Positions 4,892 to 11,097 of a stretch of DNA of 64,000 nt are shown piece by piece. Position numbers and translations under genes: made by a program. The stretch is from Myxococcales bacterium (lineage in GTDB: Bacteria; Myxococcota_A; Polyangia; Nannocystales; Nannocystaceae): NCBI GenBank assembly GCA_014240065.1, contig JAAZXR010000021.1, positions 1-64,000 of the forward strand, given 5' to 3'. The notes beneath the pieces are model-generated. The model was not told the DNA's origin and ran no database searches. It saw only the letters and a program-made list of their open reading frames with translations. Positions within the stretch are counted from its first letter, which is position 1. Each line of letters opens with the position of its first letter.

Positions 4892-5638
4892 ATGTGGATG
4901 AGAGTGTGTGTCGCGAGTCTATGGATGGTGAGCGTGACGCTCCCTGGATGTGCCGCGGACGACCCTGGCGAGTCCGAGGGCGCCACGGCCAGCACGTCGA
5001 GCGGCGAACAGGGGAGCGGTAGCGGAGACGGGGATGGAGAGGTCGGGGGCAGCGCGGCGTGTGAGAACCCCGAGCCGTTGACGAGCCCCGCGACGGGCAT
5101 GCCCACGGGCTTCGTGCGCTGCAGCGACGGGTTCATTCACCGCGAGGAGGCGGTGGGGATCCCCTCGGCGGAGACCCCTGCCAATCCTTCCTGTGGATTC
5201 GACTGGGACGATTGCGCGACCGATGCAGACTGCAATGGCGGATCGCCAGGCGGGCTCTCGCGGTGCGTAGAGCTCTTCAGTTGCTCGTCGTTCTGTCACT
5301 GCGTGGGAAGCTGCGAGGTGGATGACGACTGCGGCCCTGGACACGCCTGCGTCGATGCAGAGTTGACGGGGGACGTGCCCCGCTGCGCGCCCGCGGGGTG
5401 TCGCGACTCGAGCCAGTGCGGCGAGGGACTATGTGGCATCAGTGTGATGAAGAATGATGATGATGCGCATCCCGAGATCGAGCTTGCCTGCATGACGGAT
5501 TCGTCCGCGTGCCGCATGGACAACTGCACCCTGTCCGACGTCCCGGACGTGCCCAGTTGGGCCGTTGATGAGGATATAGATTGCCTGGCGGTGGACGGGC
5601 AATGGACCTGCGTCGCAGACCTAGGCTCCTGCGGCTAG
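4892..5638 (+). CDS. Cysteine-rich predicted lipoprotein
   Basis: Predicted envelope lipoprotein of 248 residues. A short hydrophobic leader ends in a lipobox L-P-G-C (Cys20), followed by a Ser/Gly/Asp linker with G-D-G-D-G. The mature domain has many cysteines in patterns such as C-x-x-D-x-D-C, like other myxobacterial disulfide-stabilised surface proteins. I recognise no catalytic motif. The last 20 residues (D-C-L-A-V-D-G-Q-W-T-C near the end) recur, frame-shifted, in the decayed gene just downstream. ATG 4892 gives a clean signal sequence; a second ATG at 4898 is possible. Confidence 0.8.
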   Translation: MWMRVCVASLWMVSVTLPGCAADDPGESEGATASTSSGEQGSGSGDGDGEVGGSAACENPEPLTSPATGMPTGFVRCSDGFIHREEAVGIPSAETPANPSCGFDWDDCATDADCNGGSPGGLSRCVELFSCSSFCHCVGSCEVDDDCGPGHACVDAELTGDVPRCAPAGCRDSSQCGEGLCGISVMKNDDDAHPEIELACMTDSSACRMDNCTLSDVPDVPSWAVDEDIDCLAVDGQWTCVADLGSCG

Positions 5639-5745
5639 GGGTGGCAGTCGCAGGCGACGCACCGCACCTGCACTTTAGATCTACGCCTCGTGGAACACCT
5701 CGATCGTGATGCGCAGGGGACGGGGCATGAGGGTGTATTGTGCTG

Positions 5746-5945
5746 GCCGCGGCTTCGCAGGTAAGGTTGCGGCGTGTTGATCGCTTCGTCTCGTCGTTTC
5801 GTCGCTCCGCTGCTGAGCTTCTCGCTTCTTTGTACGGCGGCCTGCGGGGCGGAGAGAGGTGACGTCGGCGCGGTTGACGGGGACGGGGGCACCGGTGACG
5901 AGAGCGACACCGGGGACCGGGACGTCTGGGATGGCACCTGGCCGA
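5746..5945 (+). repeat. Direct repeat copy A (lipoprotein promoter/leader)
   Basis: About 200 bp here closely match 9064-9271 by eye, with most positions identical. The copies cover the bases before the GTG start, the signal peptide and the G-D-G-G-T-G-D-E-S-D-T-G-D linker. The match stops just after the D-G-T-W-P codons, where the 9.1-kb gene goes on into its own mature domain. Confidence 0.85.
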
Positions 5946-6049
5946 GTCAACCGCCTGGCGGTGGACTGGGAATCGACCTGCGTCGGTGTTGCGGGCGTCT
6001 GTCGCGAGGAGGGCCGGTCCTCCCCGAGGACACCCATCCTGAACCCTAG
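5774..6049 (+). pseudogene. Chimeric lipoprotein remnant
   Basis: From GTG 5774 the frame encodes a lipoprotein leader (T-A-A-C lipobox) nearly the same as that of the gene at 9094. It then abruptly reaches DNA (about 5952-5986) that matches the 3' end of the Cys-rich lipoprotein gene (about 5582-5616), but in another frame: the next frame reads L-A-V-D-W-E-S-T-C where the intact gene reads L-A-V-D-G-Q-W-T-C. A mature domain is missing between the two parts. This looks like a Cys-rich lipoprotein gene that lost its middle and its frame. The out-of-frame tail ends at TAG 6047-6049. Confidence 0.7.
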
Positions 6050-6277
6050 GAGCCCTCGCGGGCGCGGGCCCGGCGGCCGATGAGCACATGCGGTGCGGGC
6101 GGTGGCATGGTCGGAACGTAGCGAGCGAGTGGGGCGGCGGCATTGGAACCTGCGGTGCCAGGAAGGGCCGGTGGACCGGCGCGCGGTCCCGGAGATTGCA
6201 ACGCATATGGGGTGGCGCGGCACCGACCGGTACCAGCGATGGTGACGATATGGCCGTCTCTGGCGTAGCATCTGGCT

Positions 6278-6526
6278 GTGGGATTCCTCGTCCTGGCAGG
6301 ATTCATGTACGTCGCGGTGGGGCTCGCGCTCGCCCGGGGGCTGGTGCGGGATGGAATCCCAGCGATCGTGCCTGAGGCGGCCGGGTCCACCCGCGGTTTT
6401 CGGTGGCTCATCACGCCAGGTGTCGTGCTCCTCTGGCCGCTCGTCCGAAGACGGGCACGGGCGGCCGCCCGTGTCGAAGACCCACACGGCGGTGGAGCAG
6501 ACCGATCGAGGGGGCGGGCCGAGTGA
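6278..6526 (+). CDS. Small membrane protein, first gene of redox operon
   Basis: An 82-residue product with two hydrophobic segments (about residues 2-22 and 43-56) and a basic, hydrophilic tail. I do not recognise a family. The case for a real gene is context: GTG start at 6278, and its stop TGA (6524-6526) overlaps the GTG start of the next gene as GTGA, the first of three such overlaps in a row. It probably sits in the inner membrane and may be an accessory subunit of the haem/Rieske protein encoded two genes downstream. Confidence 0.65.
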   Translation: MGFLVLAGFMYVAVGLALARGLVRDGIPAIVPEAAGSTRGFRWLITPGVVLLWPLVRRRARAAARVEDPHGGGADRSRGRAE

Positions 6527-7074
6527 ATCATCGACAGCGACGCACCCACGCAATTGTCGCCGTCGCACTCGTCGCTGCGCTGCCGGCGGGTGTCGCCGTC
6601 GCCCTCGACGCGCGCGCGCCGATGCTTGTGATGCAGGCGCTGCCGCAGCCCCTCGCGGGCGCGGAGAAGACCTCGATGCCCCAGGGGGTGACGCCACTTG
6701 CCCTCGGGGACATGGGGTTCAGGGTGTACGTGGTTAATGACGCGGTGCAGGTGCACGGTCCCCTGGACCGCGCCGTGCCCGGACCGCTGCTGTACTGGGC
6801 GCCGCGCATCCCGGAGACCCTCGCGCTCCCGGACGGTGCCATCTTTCTCGGACGCCTCGCGGATGATGGCGGCGGGCCGTTCCCGCTGCCTGCCGGTGCG
6901 GGTTCGGGCGCGTCCGCAGGCCGCGTCCGCGGGACGCTCGTGGTGTTCAGTCTCGGACATGGACAGGTGGAGGCCTCTGCGTCGCTCGCCAGCGTGGCGC
7001 GCGAGCCGAGTGGGTCGGGCGAGCGGGGTTTGCCGAGTGGACCGGGCGACGCCGGCGCTGGAGGTGCCCCTTGA
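6523..7074 (+). CDS. Membrane-anchored periplasmic protein of redox operon
   Basis: A 183-residue protein with one N-terminal hydrophobic segment (about residues 8-28) that could be a signal anchor, then a soluble Gly/Pro-rich domain with no Cys and no cofactor motif that I can see. The low-complexity Gly/Ser/Pro C-terminus is typical of high-GC drift. The GTG start overlaps the previous stop and its own TGA overlaps the TTG start of the next gene, so it should be translated together with its neighbours. Function unknown; a partner of the electron-transfer protein is an inference from linkage. Confidence 0.65.
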   Translation: MNHRQRRTHAIVAVALVAALPAGVAVALDARAPMLVMQALPQPLAGAEKTSMPQGVTPLALGDMGFRVYVVNDAVQVHGPLDRAVPGPLLYWAPRIPETLALPDGAIFLGRLADDGGGPFPLPAGAGSGASAGRVRGTLVVFSLGHGQVEASASLASVAREPSGSGERGLPSGPGDAGAGGAP

Positions 7075-8144
7075 GCGCGCACTACCAGGCGGTCGGATGG
7101 AATCGACACAAGAAGACCTACGACCTCGTCGTCGTCGGGCTGGTCGTGACCTGCCTCGCGCTGTTCGTGGCCGTGGGGATGTGGCGAGTGCCCCACGCCA
7201 ACCCTGTGACGCTGCTGCTGCGCGGACTGGGGGTGACGGGCTTCGTGCTTTTGCACCTGGTGCTCTCCATCGGTCCGCTGGCGCGCCTGAGCCCCGTGTT
7301 CGCGCCGCTTCTGTACAACCGCCGCCACCTTGGGGTCACCATGTTCGCGGTGGCCGCGGCGCACGGGTTGTTCGCCCTGGGCTACTACCACGCCCTCGGG
7401 GACGCCGAGCCGATCACAGCTATGCTGACCGCGAACGGGCGGCTTGACAGCGTCTCGCAGTTTCCCTTCCAGCCCCTGGGGTTCGTGGCCCTCGTCATCC
7501 TGGCGTTGATGGCCGCCACCAGCCATGACCTCTGGCTCAAGGTGCTCGGGCCGCGCGTGTGGAAGTCGCTGCACATGCTGGTCTATCTGGCCTACGCCCT
7601 CGTGGTGATGCACGTGGCGCTCGGGGTGCTGCAAAGCGAGACATCGCCGACGCTGTCCTGGGCGCTTGGGGGCGGGGTGTGCTGGGTGCTGGGGCTGCAC
7701 GCCGTGGCCGCCATGCGCACCGTGGCGGACGACGGCCACATGCGCCGCGCGGCGGGCTCGGTGGCCGACGAGGCGGCGCTGCGTACTGAGGGCTTCGTGC
7801 CGCTGTTTAAAGGTGCGCGCGAGGTCCCCACAGATCGGGCCCGTGTGGCGGCCCTGCCCGCGGGGCAGCGCGTGGCGGTGTTTCGCCACGGCGACCGCCT
7901 GCGCGCCGTCTCCAACCTCTGCCGACACCAGGGGGGTCCGCTTGGCGAGGGGCGCGTCATGGACGGCTGCATCACCTGTCCCTGGCACGGCTGGCAGTAC
8001 CGGGTGGAGGATGGCTGCTCACCGCCGCCGTTCGACGAGAAGGTGGAGACCTACCGGCTACGGGTGGTGAGCGACGCCGTCTGGATTCATCCGACGTCCG
8101 CGCCGCTCGGCAGCACCGACGAGGGAGAGGAGGCGACGCTGTGA
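7071..8144 (+). CDS. Ferric reductase-like membrane domain fused to Rieske [2Fe-2S] domain
   Basis: Integral membrane electron-transfer protein, 357 residues. Residues about 18-215 form six hydrophobic segments like the ferric-reductase/MsrQ haem-b domain. Candidate haem ligands are His62, His86 (in R-R-H-L-G), His98, His168 (S-L-H-M-L-V-Y) and His181. Residues about 238-340 form a Rieske domain with C284-x-H286, sixteen residues, then C303-P-W-H306. There is no flavin or NAD domain, so the Rieske centre probably replaces it as electron donor or acceptor. Start TTG 7071 overlaps the preceding TGA, and the stop overlaps the next GTG. Architecture is seen; direction of electron flow is unknown. 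Confidence 0.85.
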   Translation: MSAHYQAVGWNRHKKTYDLVVVGLVVTCLALFVAVGMWRVPHANPVTLLLRGLGVTGFVLLHLVLSIGPLARLSPVFAPLLYNRRHLGVTMFAVAAAHGLFALGYYHALGDAEPITAMLTANGRLDSVSQFPFQPLGFVALVILALMAATSHDLWLKVLGPRVWKSLHMLVYLAYALVVMHVALGVLQSETSPTLSWALGGGVCWVLGLHAVAAMRTVADDGHMRRAAGSVADEAALRTEGFVPLFKGAREVPTDRARVAALPAGQRVAVFRHGDRLRAVSNLCRHQGGPLGEGRVMDGCITCPWHGWQYRVEDGCSPPPFDEKVETYRLRVVSDAVWIHPTSAPLGSTDEGEEATL

Positions 8145-8947
8145 ACGGTGACTCGCGAGATGAGCCCATGTTCGTGGGCTACCTCGACGGCATGCCCCGG
8201 CGCACCCGGGCGGCCATGCGCGCTACGGTGCTCGGGGTATTTGTTGTGGTCGCGTCGGCCGCGGCCGCGCTCACCTCGGCGCAGCTGCCGTTTGACGCGA
8301 GCGGCTACGACCTGATCTCTGTGCGCACCTTCGAGGGTGTAGTGCGCGTCGATCCGCACCCCACCATCGAGCTCGACGTCCCGTCCACAGCGGGGGAGAT
8401 CGTACGGGCGTTCGTGGTGAACCTCGGCAAGTTCTCGGCCCGCGGCGCGCTCGAGGAGGCTGACGGCAAGCGCGCGCGCCTGCGAGGCAAGCTCGTCTAC
8501 CGCGGCGACCAGGTGATGATCGAGCTGCTGCCCTGGTCCGTGGAGGTGCTCGGCGAGGGTGAGAGCGCAGGTGACGTCGCGGCGGCGAGCGCACACCCGG
8601 GCGAGACCGTGGAGGCGCACGGCGAGGTGACCCTGGTGGGAGAGATCGTGGACAGCAAGTGCTACTACGGCGTCATGAACCCCGGGAACCTCAAGCCGCA
8701 CCGGGGCTGCGCCGTGCGCTGTATCAGCGGCGGCATCCCGCCGGTGCTCTTGGTGCGCAGCGAGGCAGCGGGGGAGACCTCCGTGCGTTACGTGCTGCTC
8801 GTGGGCCCCGATGGCGCGCCCATCAATGAGGCGATCCTCGATCGCGTCGCCGAACCGGTGCAGGCGAAGGGGGCGCTAGAGCGTCATGACGACATGTGGG
8901 TCCTGCGCGTCGCTCCAGGGGACATCACGCGGGTGACGTCGAACTAG
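8141..8947 (+). CDS. Membrane-anchored protein with conserved-looking Cys/His motif
   Basis: 268 residues with one membrane segment (about 27-47) and a large soluble, probably periplasmic, part. Near residues 168-200 lies a dense motif: V-D-S-K-C174, then H187, C190 and C194, followed by I-S-G-G-I-P-P. Three Cys and one His this close suggest a metal or cluster site, or a disulfide-based redox centre, but there is no CxxCH. Start GTG 8141 overlaps the stop of the Rieske fusion gene. It is the last gene of the four-gene operon. I do not recognise a named family. Confidence 0.75.
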   Translation: MNGDSRDEPMFVGYLDGMPRRTRAAMRATVLGVFVVVASAAAALTSAQLPFDASGYDLISVRTFEGVVRVDPHPTIELDVPSTAGEIVRAFVVNLGKFSARGALEEADGKRARLRGKLVYRGDQVMIELLPWSVEVLGEGESAGDVAAASAHPGETVEAHGEVTLVGEIVDSKCYYGVMNPGNLKPHRGCAVRCISGGIPPVLLVRSEAAGETSVRYVLLVGPDGAPINEAILDRVAEPVQAKGALERHDDMWVLRVAPGDITRVTSN

Positions 8948-9063
8948 CCTCACCGCGGCGCGACGACGTGAGACGTCTGCATCTGGCACAGACATTCGAT
9001 GACGGATCGGGATACCGATGGGGATGGGATGAAGAGGTAATGGGTCCTGCGGACCTCTTGTTC

Positions 9064-9271
9064 GGCCCGCGGCTTCGAAGGTATGGTTGCGGCGTGTTGA
9101 CCGCTTTGTCTCGTCGTTTCGTCGCTCGTCTTCTGAGCGTCTCGTTTGTTTTCACGGCGGCCTGCGGGGCGGAGGCAGGTGACGTCGGCGTGGACGACGG
9201 GGACGGAGGCACCGGTGACGAGAGCGACACCGGGGACGGGGACGGGGACGCCTGGGACGGCACCTGGCCGA
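9064..9271 (+). repeat. Direct repeat copy B (lipoprotein promoter/leader)
   Basis: Partner of the copy at 5746-5945. It spans the bases upstream of the GTG start, the signal peptide and the Gly-Asp linker of the intact lipoprotein gene. Because the match includes non-coding bases before the start, it reflects DNA duplication and not only protein similarity. Confidence 0.85.
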
Positions 9272-11097
9272 CGCTAGACTGCGACCCGCTCGTCCCGAGC
9301 TACTGCGCCTTTCCGCTCCCCAACAACGTGTTCACCGTGGCCGACCCAGCGCGGGAGACGGGGCTGCGCACGCAGTTCGATCCCATGACCGTCCCGGTGA
9401 GCAGCTCGGGCGGGGTCACCGACGTGACCCCGTTCAACACGCGCGATGGGTTCTCCCCCGGCATCAACATGGTGACGCATCTGCCCGGCGCCACGGCGCA
9501 GGGCCTGCCTCGCCCCGACAGCATCGAGGAATCGCTGAGCCCGTCCTCGCCCACGATTCTGCTGGATGTGGAGACGGGGGCGCTGGTGCCCCACTGGTCG
9601 GAGATCGACATGAGCACCGCGGATGACGAGCGGCGCGCCTTTCTCATCCGCCCCGCCGTACGCCTCGACGACGCGAAGCGCTACATCGTGGCCATCCGCG
9701 ACGTGGTGGACGGGAACGGGGAGCCCATCGCTCCCTCGGAGGGTTTCTTGGCCCTTCGCGACGACGGTGCGTCCGACGATCCTGCCATCAACGATCGCCG
9801 GGACCTCTACGACAACATCTTCCGGGAGCTCGAGGACGCGGGCGTCCCCCGCGACGATCTGCAGCTTGCCTGGGACTTCACCACCGCGAGCCGCGACGAC
9901 ACCACGGCGTGGATGCTTCACATGCGGGATGTAGCTTTGGAGATGACGCCGGCGTCGGGGCCGAGCTACCTCCTCGATTCCGTCACGCCAAACTGGGCCC
10001 CGGGGATCGCGTTCCGCGTGGAGGGCCACGTGGAGGTGCCGCTGTTTTTGGACGACCCCGGACCGGGTGGGATGATGCGCATCGGCGACGACGGGCTCCC
10101 GCGGGCGGAGAGCACGGCCATGTATCCCTTCCTCGCGCTTATTCCTGAGAGCGCGGGTACCGAGCCGGCCGCGCTGTTGCAGTTTGGGCACGGCCTGTTT
10201 GGGACCTACACGCAGGTGGAGGGGACGCAGGCCATCGCCACCGGCTACAACATGGTGACCTTCGGGGTCGACTGGATCGGAATGTCGAGTGAGGACCCGG
10301 TCCAGCTGCTGGCCCTGCTCTCCAGCGGGGACCTCTCGAATTTCGCGACGCTGCCGGACCGGCTGCTGCAAGCGCAGGTCAACGCGCTCTTGACCATGCG
10401 CATGATGATGGGGGACTTCAAGGACGACCCGCAGCTTCAAGTCAACGGCCAAATCCCCATCGACGCCGAGGAGCGCTACTACGCCGGAGGGAGTCTCGGT
10501 GGAATTTTGGGCAGCGTCTACATGGCGATCACCCCCGACGTGCAGCGCGGCGGGCTCATGGTGCCCGGGCAATCCTTCAACCTCTTGCTCAGCCGCAGCG
10601 TGCTGTTTCAGCCGTTTTTTGACGTGCTGCAGCTCAACTACGACGACCCCCTGGACATCCCCATGTTCCTCGCGACCGCGATGCTGCTCTGGGACCGCGC
10701 GGAGCCCACGGGTTTCACGCCGTACCTTCGAAGCGGCGCGCTCACCGACGGGTTCAAACACGAGGTGTTGATTCAAGGCGCCATGGGGGATCACCAGGTC
10801 ACCAACTTTGGGACGCACCTCATGTCGCGGGCCATCGGCGCGCCGCCGCTGGTGACCTCGGGCGAGTACTTTTGGGGGATGGATCCGGTGGAGGATGGGC
10901 ACGAGGGATCGGCGACCATCATGTACGATTTTGGACTCCCGCCCATTCCCCTCGAGAACGTCCCGATGGAGGAGGGCGACGATCCGCACGCGTCGATCCT
11001 GCTCCTCCCGGGTGGGGAGGGGCTGACCACGCTCGACACCTTCCTCCGGACGGGCGCCGTGATCAACGCCTGCGACGGCGTCTGCGATCCGGATTGA
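9094..11097 (+). CDS. Large lipoprotein with alpha/beta-hydrolase-like features
   Basis: Predicted outer-envelope lipoprotein of 667 residues. The leader ends with lipobox T-A-A-C (Cys24), then an Asp/Gly/Thr linker to about residue 58. The mature part has a hydrolase-style F-G-H-G-L-F-G (about 364-370), a nucleophile-elbow-like G465-G-S467-L-G469, and a late G-D566-H567 that could supply acid and base. This recalls bacterial lipase/virulence-factor hydrolases, but the match is by motif only. GTG 9094 is chosen because the duplicated leader at 5774 starts at the same codon; the frame is open further upstream without signal-peptide character. Confidence 0.75.
   Translation: MLTALSRRFVARLLSVSFVFTAACGAEAGDVGVDDGDGGTGDESDTGDGDGDAWDGTWPTLDCDPLVPSYCAFPLPNNVFTVADPARETGLRTQFDPMTVPVSSSGGVTDVTPFNTRDGFSPGINMVTHLPGATAQGLPRPDSIEESLSPSSPTILLDVETGALVPHWSEIDMSTADDERRAFLIRPAVRLDDAKRYIVAIRDVVDGNGEPIAPSEGFLALRDDGASDDPAINDRRDLYDNIFRELEDAGVPRDDLQLAWDFTTASRDDTTAWMLHMRDVALEMTPASGPSYLLDSVTPNWAPGIAFRVEGHVEVPLFLDDPGPGGMMRIGDDGLPRAESTAMYPFLALIPESAGTEPAALLQFGHGLFGTYTQVEGTQAIATGYNMVTFGVDWIGMSSEDPVQLLALLSSGDLSNFATLPDRLLQAQVNALLTMRMMMGDFKDDPQLQVNGQIPIDAEERYYAGGSLGGILGSVYMAITPDVQRGGLMVPGQSFNLLLSRSVLFQPFFDVLQLNYDDPLDIPMFLATAMLLWDRAEPTGFTPYLRSGALTDGFKHEVLIQGAMGDHQVTNFGTHLMSRAIGAPPLVTSGEYFWGMDPVEDGHEGSATIMYDFGLPPIPLENVPMEEGDDPHASILLLPGGEGLTTLDTFLRTGAVINACDGVCDPD

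Follow-up and report, generated by a model that had tools for sequence, protein, structure and literature searches.

MsrQ (YedZ) is thought to take electrons from the flavin reductase Fre and hands them to the periplasmic protein MsrP (PMC5676040). In the NOX enzymes and ferric reductases (FRE), a membrane domain of the ferric reductase domain (FRD) type is followed by a C-terminal cytoplasmic electron-input domain, which there comprises FAD and NADPH domains. The accessible part of a 2013 survey of FRD proteins lists a Rieske domain as one of six bacterial FRD domain extensions (architecture “M4”) and states that, in general, such variants seldom occur outside groups of related species (PMC3591440). 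The locus analysed here, located in a window of 64,000 nucleotides (the whole stretch of DNA under study), encodes a protein, C, which resembles NOX/FRE in joining an FRD membrane domain to a C-terminal, predicted cytoplasmic input domain, the latter, however, being a Rieske [2Fe-2S] domain. Together with the products of three adjacent genes, A, B and D, it would form a conserved four-component membrane electron-transfer complex, for which comparative sequence data and structural models provide strong support; that haem and cluster are bound and that the four proteins assemble is proposed, as are the cofactor of D and the substrate.

Four overlapping genes and their occurrence

The four genes are all on the + strand of the window. 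Gene A (6278–6526) encodes a two-helix membrane protein of 82 aa, gene B (6523–7074) a single-anchor protein of 183 aa with an extracytoplasmic C-terminal part, gene C (7071–8144) a protein with an MsrQ/ferric-reductase-like six-helix haem domain (residues about 17–215) and a Rieske [2Fe-2S] domain (about 250–340), and gene D (8141–8947) a protein with a one-helix anchor and two OB folds, the second of which carries the motif D-x-K-C-x12-H-x2-C-x3-C (residues 171–194); C starts with TTG, the others with GTG. An earlier note on this DNA had described four consecutive genes overlapping by four bases each, and all four open reading frames as well as the overlaps, GTGA at 6523–6526 (A/B), TTGA at 7071–7074 (B/C) and GTGA at 8141–8144 (C/D), were found as described. 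The non-ATG starts of B, C and D are supported by alignment with the N-termini of homologues: that of B matches the family N-terminus, which keeps R6 and H9, the first residues of C align with “MS..Y.AV.WNRQKK” and those of D with “M..DxFYVGY”. Purine-rich stretches precede C (GGAGGTG) and D (GGAGG), and an Rfam search of window positions 5500–9500 gave no match.

A direct repeat of 217 nt (5708–5924 and 9028–9244, 84% identical) lies on either side of the four-gene cassette, which may therefore reside in a duplicated or inserted segment; both copies contain the 5′ end of a lipoprotein-like gene, the upstream one being truncated. A shorter repeat of 67 nt (5583–5649 and 5953–6019, 72%) connects the 3′ end of the preceding lipoprotein-like reading frame with the end of the truncated copy; the arrangement resembles a paralogue whose middle has been lost.

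Four-base gene overlaps are common in compact, high-GC genomes and are, taken alone, no proof of a complex, which is the point in favour of A–D being co-transcribed neighbours that share no common complex. That explanation was confronted with relatives of the locus. When one genome per species was scanned with the C alignment, 80 C loci were recovered, at 42–54% identity, from Acidobacteriota, Bacteroidota, Planctomycetota, Verrucomicrobiota, Pseudomonadota, Gemmatimonadota, Myxococcota, Cyanobacteriota and others; with five Myxococcota loci added, the set comprises 85 loci from at least 12 phyla. A is encoded upstream of C in 81 of them, B is present in 80 and D in 83, with several of the gaps being contig ends; 29 loci have a four-base overlap between the stop of C and the start of D, and in 12 the overlap amounts to eight bases. 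The earlier note had made its reading depend on the genes staying together in relatives; they do, the order A-B-C-D being kept across about a dozen phyla with 76 of the 85 loci complete, which is far beyond chance. Exceptions are a C without D in locus L092 and locus L026, where A and B are not detectable. Given this order and the fusion of C to D in at least three lineages (see below), mere co-transcription is largely refuted already and retains a minimal probability. The evidence that the genes stay together is mostly genomic; it speaks to partnership and not to the direction of electron flow.

Within Myxococcota the distribution is patchy, as D is significant in 10 of 284 genomes and in none of the listed members of the family to which the window belongs. 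C and D are adjacent in six genomes, the window's own among them, and the remaining D matches in the phylum are mostly short or weak. On Rhizobium plasmids the gene order recurs under the annotations hypothetical, hypothetical, “Rieske 2Fe-2S domain-containing protein”, hypothetical; for the WSM1689 plasmid, A, B and D are each picked up by the respective family profile.

Neither A nor B has a Pfam or NCBIfam match above cut-off. The A family conserves Y11, G15, P47, G48, W53 and P54, and its profile recovers the window member with an E-value of about 1e-16. The window member of the B family (E 2.3e-27) keeps R6 and H9 ahead of its helix; the family is often poorly conserved, and the B stop meets or overlaps the C start in about 50 loci. 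In a plasmid copy from Rhizobium leguminosarum (L106, 8840–9004) B measures only 54 aa and retains the R/H-rich N-terminus and the helix, suggesting that the anchor rather than the outer part is the essential portion. The idea that A and B are small membrane partners of C holds insofar as both are membrane proteins occurring with C, but B is for the most part a single-anchor protein with an extracytoplasmic part.

The haem and Rieske domains of C

Pfam places a Ferric_reduct domain (PF01794) at residues 53–178 of C (E 1.2e-12) and a Rieske domain at residues 250–328 (E 3.4e-15), both above the curated cut-offs, and detects no flavin or NAD(P) domain. Together with the six helices of the model, these matches agree with the initial description of a ferric-reductase-like six-helix domain joined to a Rieske centre without a flavin domain; C is, moreover, the only Ferric_reduct protein encoded in the 4.7-Mb host genome. 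Two assignments were considered and rejected: C is not taken for a NOX/FRE enzyme, there being no FAD- or NADPH-binding Pfam match, nor for an MsrQ equivalog. Its similarity to the NCBIfam MsrQ model extends over residues 25–213 (E 7e-13), at 48.5 bits, below the cut-off of 130; none of A–D matches a molybdopterin family, the constant partner being D.

In the alignment of C homologues, histidines H86, H98, H152, H168 and H181 of the haem domain are each present in 86 of 86 sequences, so that the haem histidines, whose conservation the earlier note had left to be checked, are invariant. The same applies to the Rieske ligands C284, H286, C303 and H306 (C-x-H…C-x2-H). Membership in the FRD superfamily is indicated by PF01794, by H98, H168 and H181 (86/86) and by the six modelled helices. 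An arginine (R84) occupies the first TM3 position and is followed by H98, with H168 and H181 thirteen residues apart, which is the YedZ/STEAP pattern given in the accessible part of PMC3591440. Measured against the NOX type, in which two pairs of TM3/TM5 histidines bind two haems, H98 and H181 make up one histidine pair, the other TM3 position being the arginine, with the invariant H86 two residues further on; judged from these residues, including the additional H86, C might carry one haem or two.

The Rieske domain in the model of a C–D fusion (L032) superimposes on soluble dioxygenase ferredoxins with TM-scores of up to 0.88; because of this fold match, it is considered to be of the ferredoxin type and not of the bc1 type.

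Partnership with D and the Cys/His site

C and D form one open frame in six loci (L032, L054, L055, L060, L075 and L076), in all of which D's own hydrophobic helix is kept. As the tree of C shows the fused loci in three or more unconnected positions, the fusion has arisen repeatedly, which is strong evidence that C and D work together. (The joint C–D alignment also contains five unfused pairs, joined across one stop codon solely to serve as alignment rows.) The L032 fusion is modelled with a pLDDT of 87.9 and a pTM of 0.85; its six helices are followed by the Rieske domain, by another helix, the seventh, and by a pair of OB folds. Positive charges per protein average 3.3 at the N-terminus of C, 4.2 in loop 2-3, 1.7 in loop 4-5 and 3.6 after TM6, with 0.3, 0.7 and 0.2 in the other loops. 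This charge pattern, the six helices preceding the Rieske domain and the helix of D in the fusions place the N-terminus and the Rieske domain of C in the cytoplasm and D in the periplasm; the predicted topology and the partnership of C and D are both well supported. The Cys/His cluster of D had been proposed to lie outside the membrane, and models and charge distribution do assign it to the periplasmic side, with the refinement that D is itself membrane-anchored. Gene order in at least 12 phyla, repeated C–D fusion, invariant ligands and a fusion model with Rieske domain and D on opposite sides all speak for the membrane electron-transfer complex as first suggested.

For D, neither Pfam nor NCBIfam gives a match above cut-off, and a PDB search with a profile built from 80 D sequences detects no sequence relative. 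Its AlphaFold model (pLDDT 89.1, pTM 0.82) has a helix at residues 20–46 and two OB folds, with the five-stranded barrel typical of this fold, and the best Foldseek matches are OB-fold proteins, SSB and PriB among others; full-length TM-scores are low, owing to the two OB domains and the anchor. A PDB search result relating residues 71–128 (window 8351–8524) to the N-terminus of enolase (E 9e-4) was judged a chance match and dropped, because the stretch is short, the 80-sequence profile has no PDB relative and the model is an OB fold.

The cluster of Cys174, His187, Cys190 and Cys194 noticed at the outset is invariant. These residues, together with K173, G177, M179, P181 and A191, are kept in 82 of 82 D sequences (D171 in 81), and wherever the motif pattern matched, in 80 sequences, C174 and H187 are the same distance apart (C-x12-H); the possibility that the motif might prove variable in relatives, raised in the same note, thus did not materialise. 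In the model, the candidate site is part of the second OB fold, where C174 starts one short helix and C190 and C194 lie on another. From its sequence the site is probably a redox metal or thiol centre, for which these residues are candidate ligands. A twin-arginine (RR-type) motif is found in 6 of 81 D N-termini, which disfavours an Fe-S cluster delivered by the Tat pathway; therefore thiols or a cofactor acquired extracytoplasmically are likelier than a pre-folded cluster. A standalone small secreted protein with a D-like motif (D-x-x-C…H-x2-C-A-x2-C) is encoded in another locus (L016, 8084–8494), with genes for a multicopper oxidase and a VKOR-domain protein several kilobases away.

The scarcity of Tat motifs, making a pre-formed Fe-S cluster unlikely, and the location of C190 and C194 (C-x3-C) on one predicted helix with C174 near in sequence would also suit a periplasmic thiol reductase or repair protein following an MsrP/DsbD-like logic, its cysteine pair being kept reduced by C for protein or lipid repair. 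Because H187, K173 and M179 are conserved just as strictly as the cysteines, a metal site is suggested more than a plain pair of thiols, and this function is given only a small chance. Alternatively, C might be a metallo- or oxygen reductase akin to STEAP, FRE or NOX, in which the haem, on its periplasmic side, reduces Fe3+, Cu2+ or O2 directly and D serves to bind metal or has a structural role. Its Ferric_reduct domain and YedZ/STEAP-like ligands (R84 with H98/H168/H181; PMC3591440, accessible part) fit such an activity, as do the abundance of Cys, His and Met in the D site, CopD or YHS neighbours in some loci and the standalone D-like protein near a multicopper oxidase, but strict conservation, fixed spacing and fusion to C make D look like an obligatory partner and not an accessory, and we regard this alternative as rather improbable.

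Proposed electron route, neighbouring genes and known systems

The operon probably encodes a NOX/MsrQ-like membrane electron-transfer complex with cytoplasmic input through a Rieske centre, outward transfer via haem b and D as periplasmic partner, a scheme we favour with some reservation. The Rieske [2Fe-2S] centre of C, in the position of the flavin domain of NOX and ferric reductases, would accept electrons singly from a soluble reductase or flavoenzyme in the cytoplasm. They would then pass through one or two b haems of the MsrQ-like six-helix domain (H98/H181, possibly H86/H168) and exit at the periplasmic side to the anchored, tandem OB-fold D, whose Cys174/His187/Cys190/Cys194 centre may act on a substrate in the periplasm or supply it with electrons; A and B would be small membrane subunits of the same complex. 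This route, from reductase via Rieske, b haem and D to substrate, is drawn by analogy with MsrQ, and it is on such analogy that the outward direction is favoured. The earlier note had not committed itself to a direction; a quinone, which it named as a possible donor, might also serve.

Possible donors are found among the genes next to the operon in relatives, the clustering of which relies on a composition-based gene caller. Enzymes with a Rieske domain fused to a glutamate-synthase-like or TPP (pyruvate-oxidase-like) part lie by the operon, for example in L020 (7006–8634), L027 (6466–8415) and L012 (11462–13441); in raw counts, the former type occurs in 19 loci and the latter in about 20, hits to C itself being removed. 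Judged from sequence, both are possible cytoplasmic electron donors. In Rhizobium sp. Q54 (L092, 10126–11217) a Rieske–FMN reductase (FMN_red) fusion directly follows C, no D being detected; this gene suggests flavoenzymes as donors and is itself a plausible one. Further recurrent neighbours are, again as raw locus counts, ATP-grasp (24), OlsB-like GNAT acyltransferase (22), DinB (21), TANGO2 (20), a YHS protein (18) and OlsA-like acyltransferase (15). All these recurrent genes, the two Rieske fusion types included, are mostly encoded on the same strand as the operon and occur in Bacteroidota, Acidobacteriota, Planctomycetota, Gemmatimonadota and others; this spread, though given as raw counts, argues for a functional link. 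Downstream of D in L018, L032, L054, L064, L083 and others, genes for OlsB-like GNAT, OlsA-like acyltransferase, DinB, TANGO2 and an alpha/beta-hydrolase with VTT and a C-terminal ATP-grasp-like part form a run which looks like an undescribed aminolipid or peptide pathway. The window genome contains no Rieske-TPP or Rieske-glutamate-synthase fusion, a search for OlsB was empty there and ATP-grasp matches were weak, so the core operon can apparently stand alone.

The same neighbours, the Rieske–glutamate-synthase-like and Rieske–TPP enzymes and the OlsB/OlsA-like acyltransferases, and the ferredoxin type of C's Rieske domain, which normally feeds oxygenases, could be accommodated by a reverse flow, from a periplasmic donor through D and the haem of C to the Rieske centre and on to a cytoplasmic oxygenase or flavoenzyme (e.g., for lipid or amino-acid modification). 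An oxygenase catalytic subunit is, however, never a constant neighbour, and the nearest characterised analogues, MsrQ, NOX and ferric reductases, all work outward; inward flow is therefore considered unlikely. Extending the favoured outward scheme, we speculate that D is the founder of a new periplasmic redox class, with a centre of three Cys and one His (plus Met/Lys) on an OB fold that receives its electrons from the cytoplasmic Rieske domain by way of a haem relay across the membrane and forms the core of a conserved pathway common to about a dozen phyla (Rieske-flavoenzymes, OlsB/OlsA-like acyltransferases, ATP-grasp, DinB and TANGO2); this is possible, if doubtful.

Searches of the open-access literature brought up the 2013 FRD survey and papers on MsrQ and NOX only, and nothing that deals with the operon, with A, B or D, or with the neighbour module. 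The label “undescribed” in the earlier note thus fits the operon and D, as judged from that literature and the family libraries, but not the FRD-Rieske architecture, which is listed in the accessible part of PMC3591440. There, the operon, A, B and D are absent from the description of “M4”, and C, unlike the variants confined to related species, spans about 12 phyla. What emerges appears to be a transmembrane electron-transfer complex without a described function, spread over about a dozen phyla and present in the culturable Flagellimonas and Rhizobium. It would extend the known bacterial routes by which reducing power is sent outward and would give a function to three unnamed families (A, B and D), and the conserved neighbours make the pathway directly testable.

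Cytochromes bc1 and b6f likewise combine a b haem membrane protein with a Rieske centre, which there is of another type and periplasmic or lumenal, whereas that of C is of the ferredoxin type and predicted to be cytoplasmic; a bc1/b6f-type assignment was rejected, as positive-inside pattern, six preceding helices and fusion helix do not place the domain outside the cytoplasm. The Rieske ferredoxins of dioxygenases (BphA3, naphthalene dioxygenase ferredoxin, CarAc) share fold and C-x-H…C-x2-H ligands with C, but are soluble, while the domain of C is covalently joined to a membrane haem domain. In the dual Sec/Tat haem-Moco fusion family of Sco3746 (PMC5449189), a haem b membrane domain is fused to a periplasmic redox partner as in the C–D fusions; that partner is a Tat-exported molybdoenzyme, whereas D has neither a molybdopterin domain nor a clear Tat motif. 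MsrQ resembles C as a six-helix haem b protein of the FRD type with three matching histidines, an arginine for the first TM3 histidine and an outward path to a periplasmic partner (PMC5676040 and the accessible part of PMC3591440), but has no Rieske domain, and its partner MsrP is a molybdoenzyme and not an OB-fold Cys/His protein. Compared to these systems, the flavin input of the NOX type would here be replaced by a Rieske centre and paired with an unnamed, predicted periplasmic family bearing an invariant Cys/His site.
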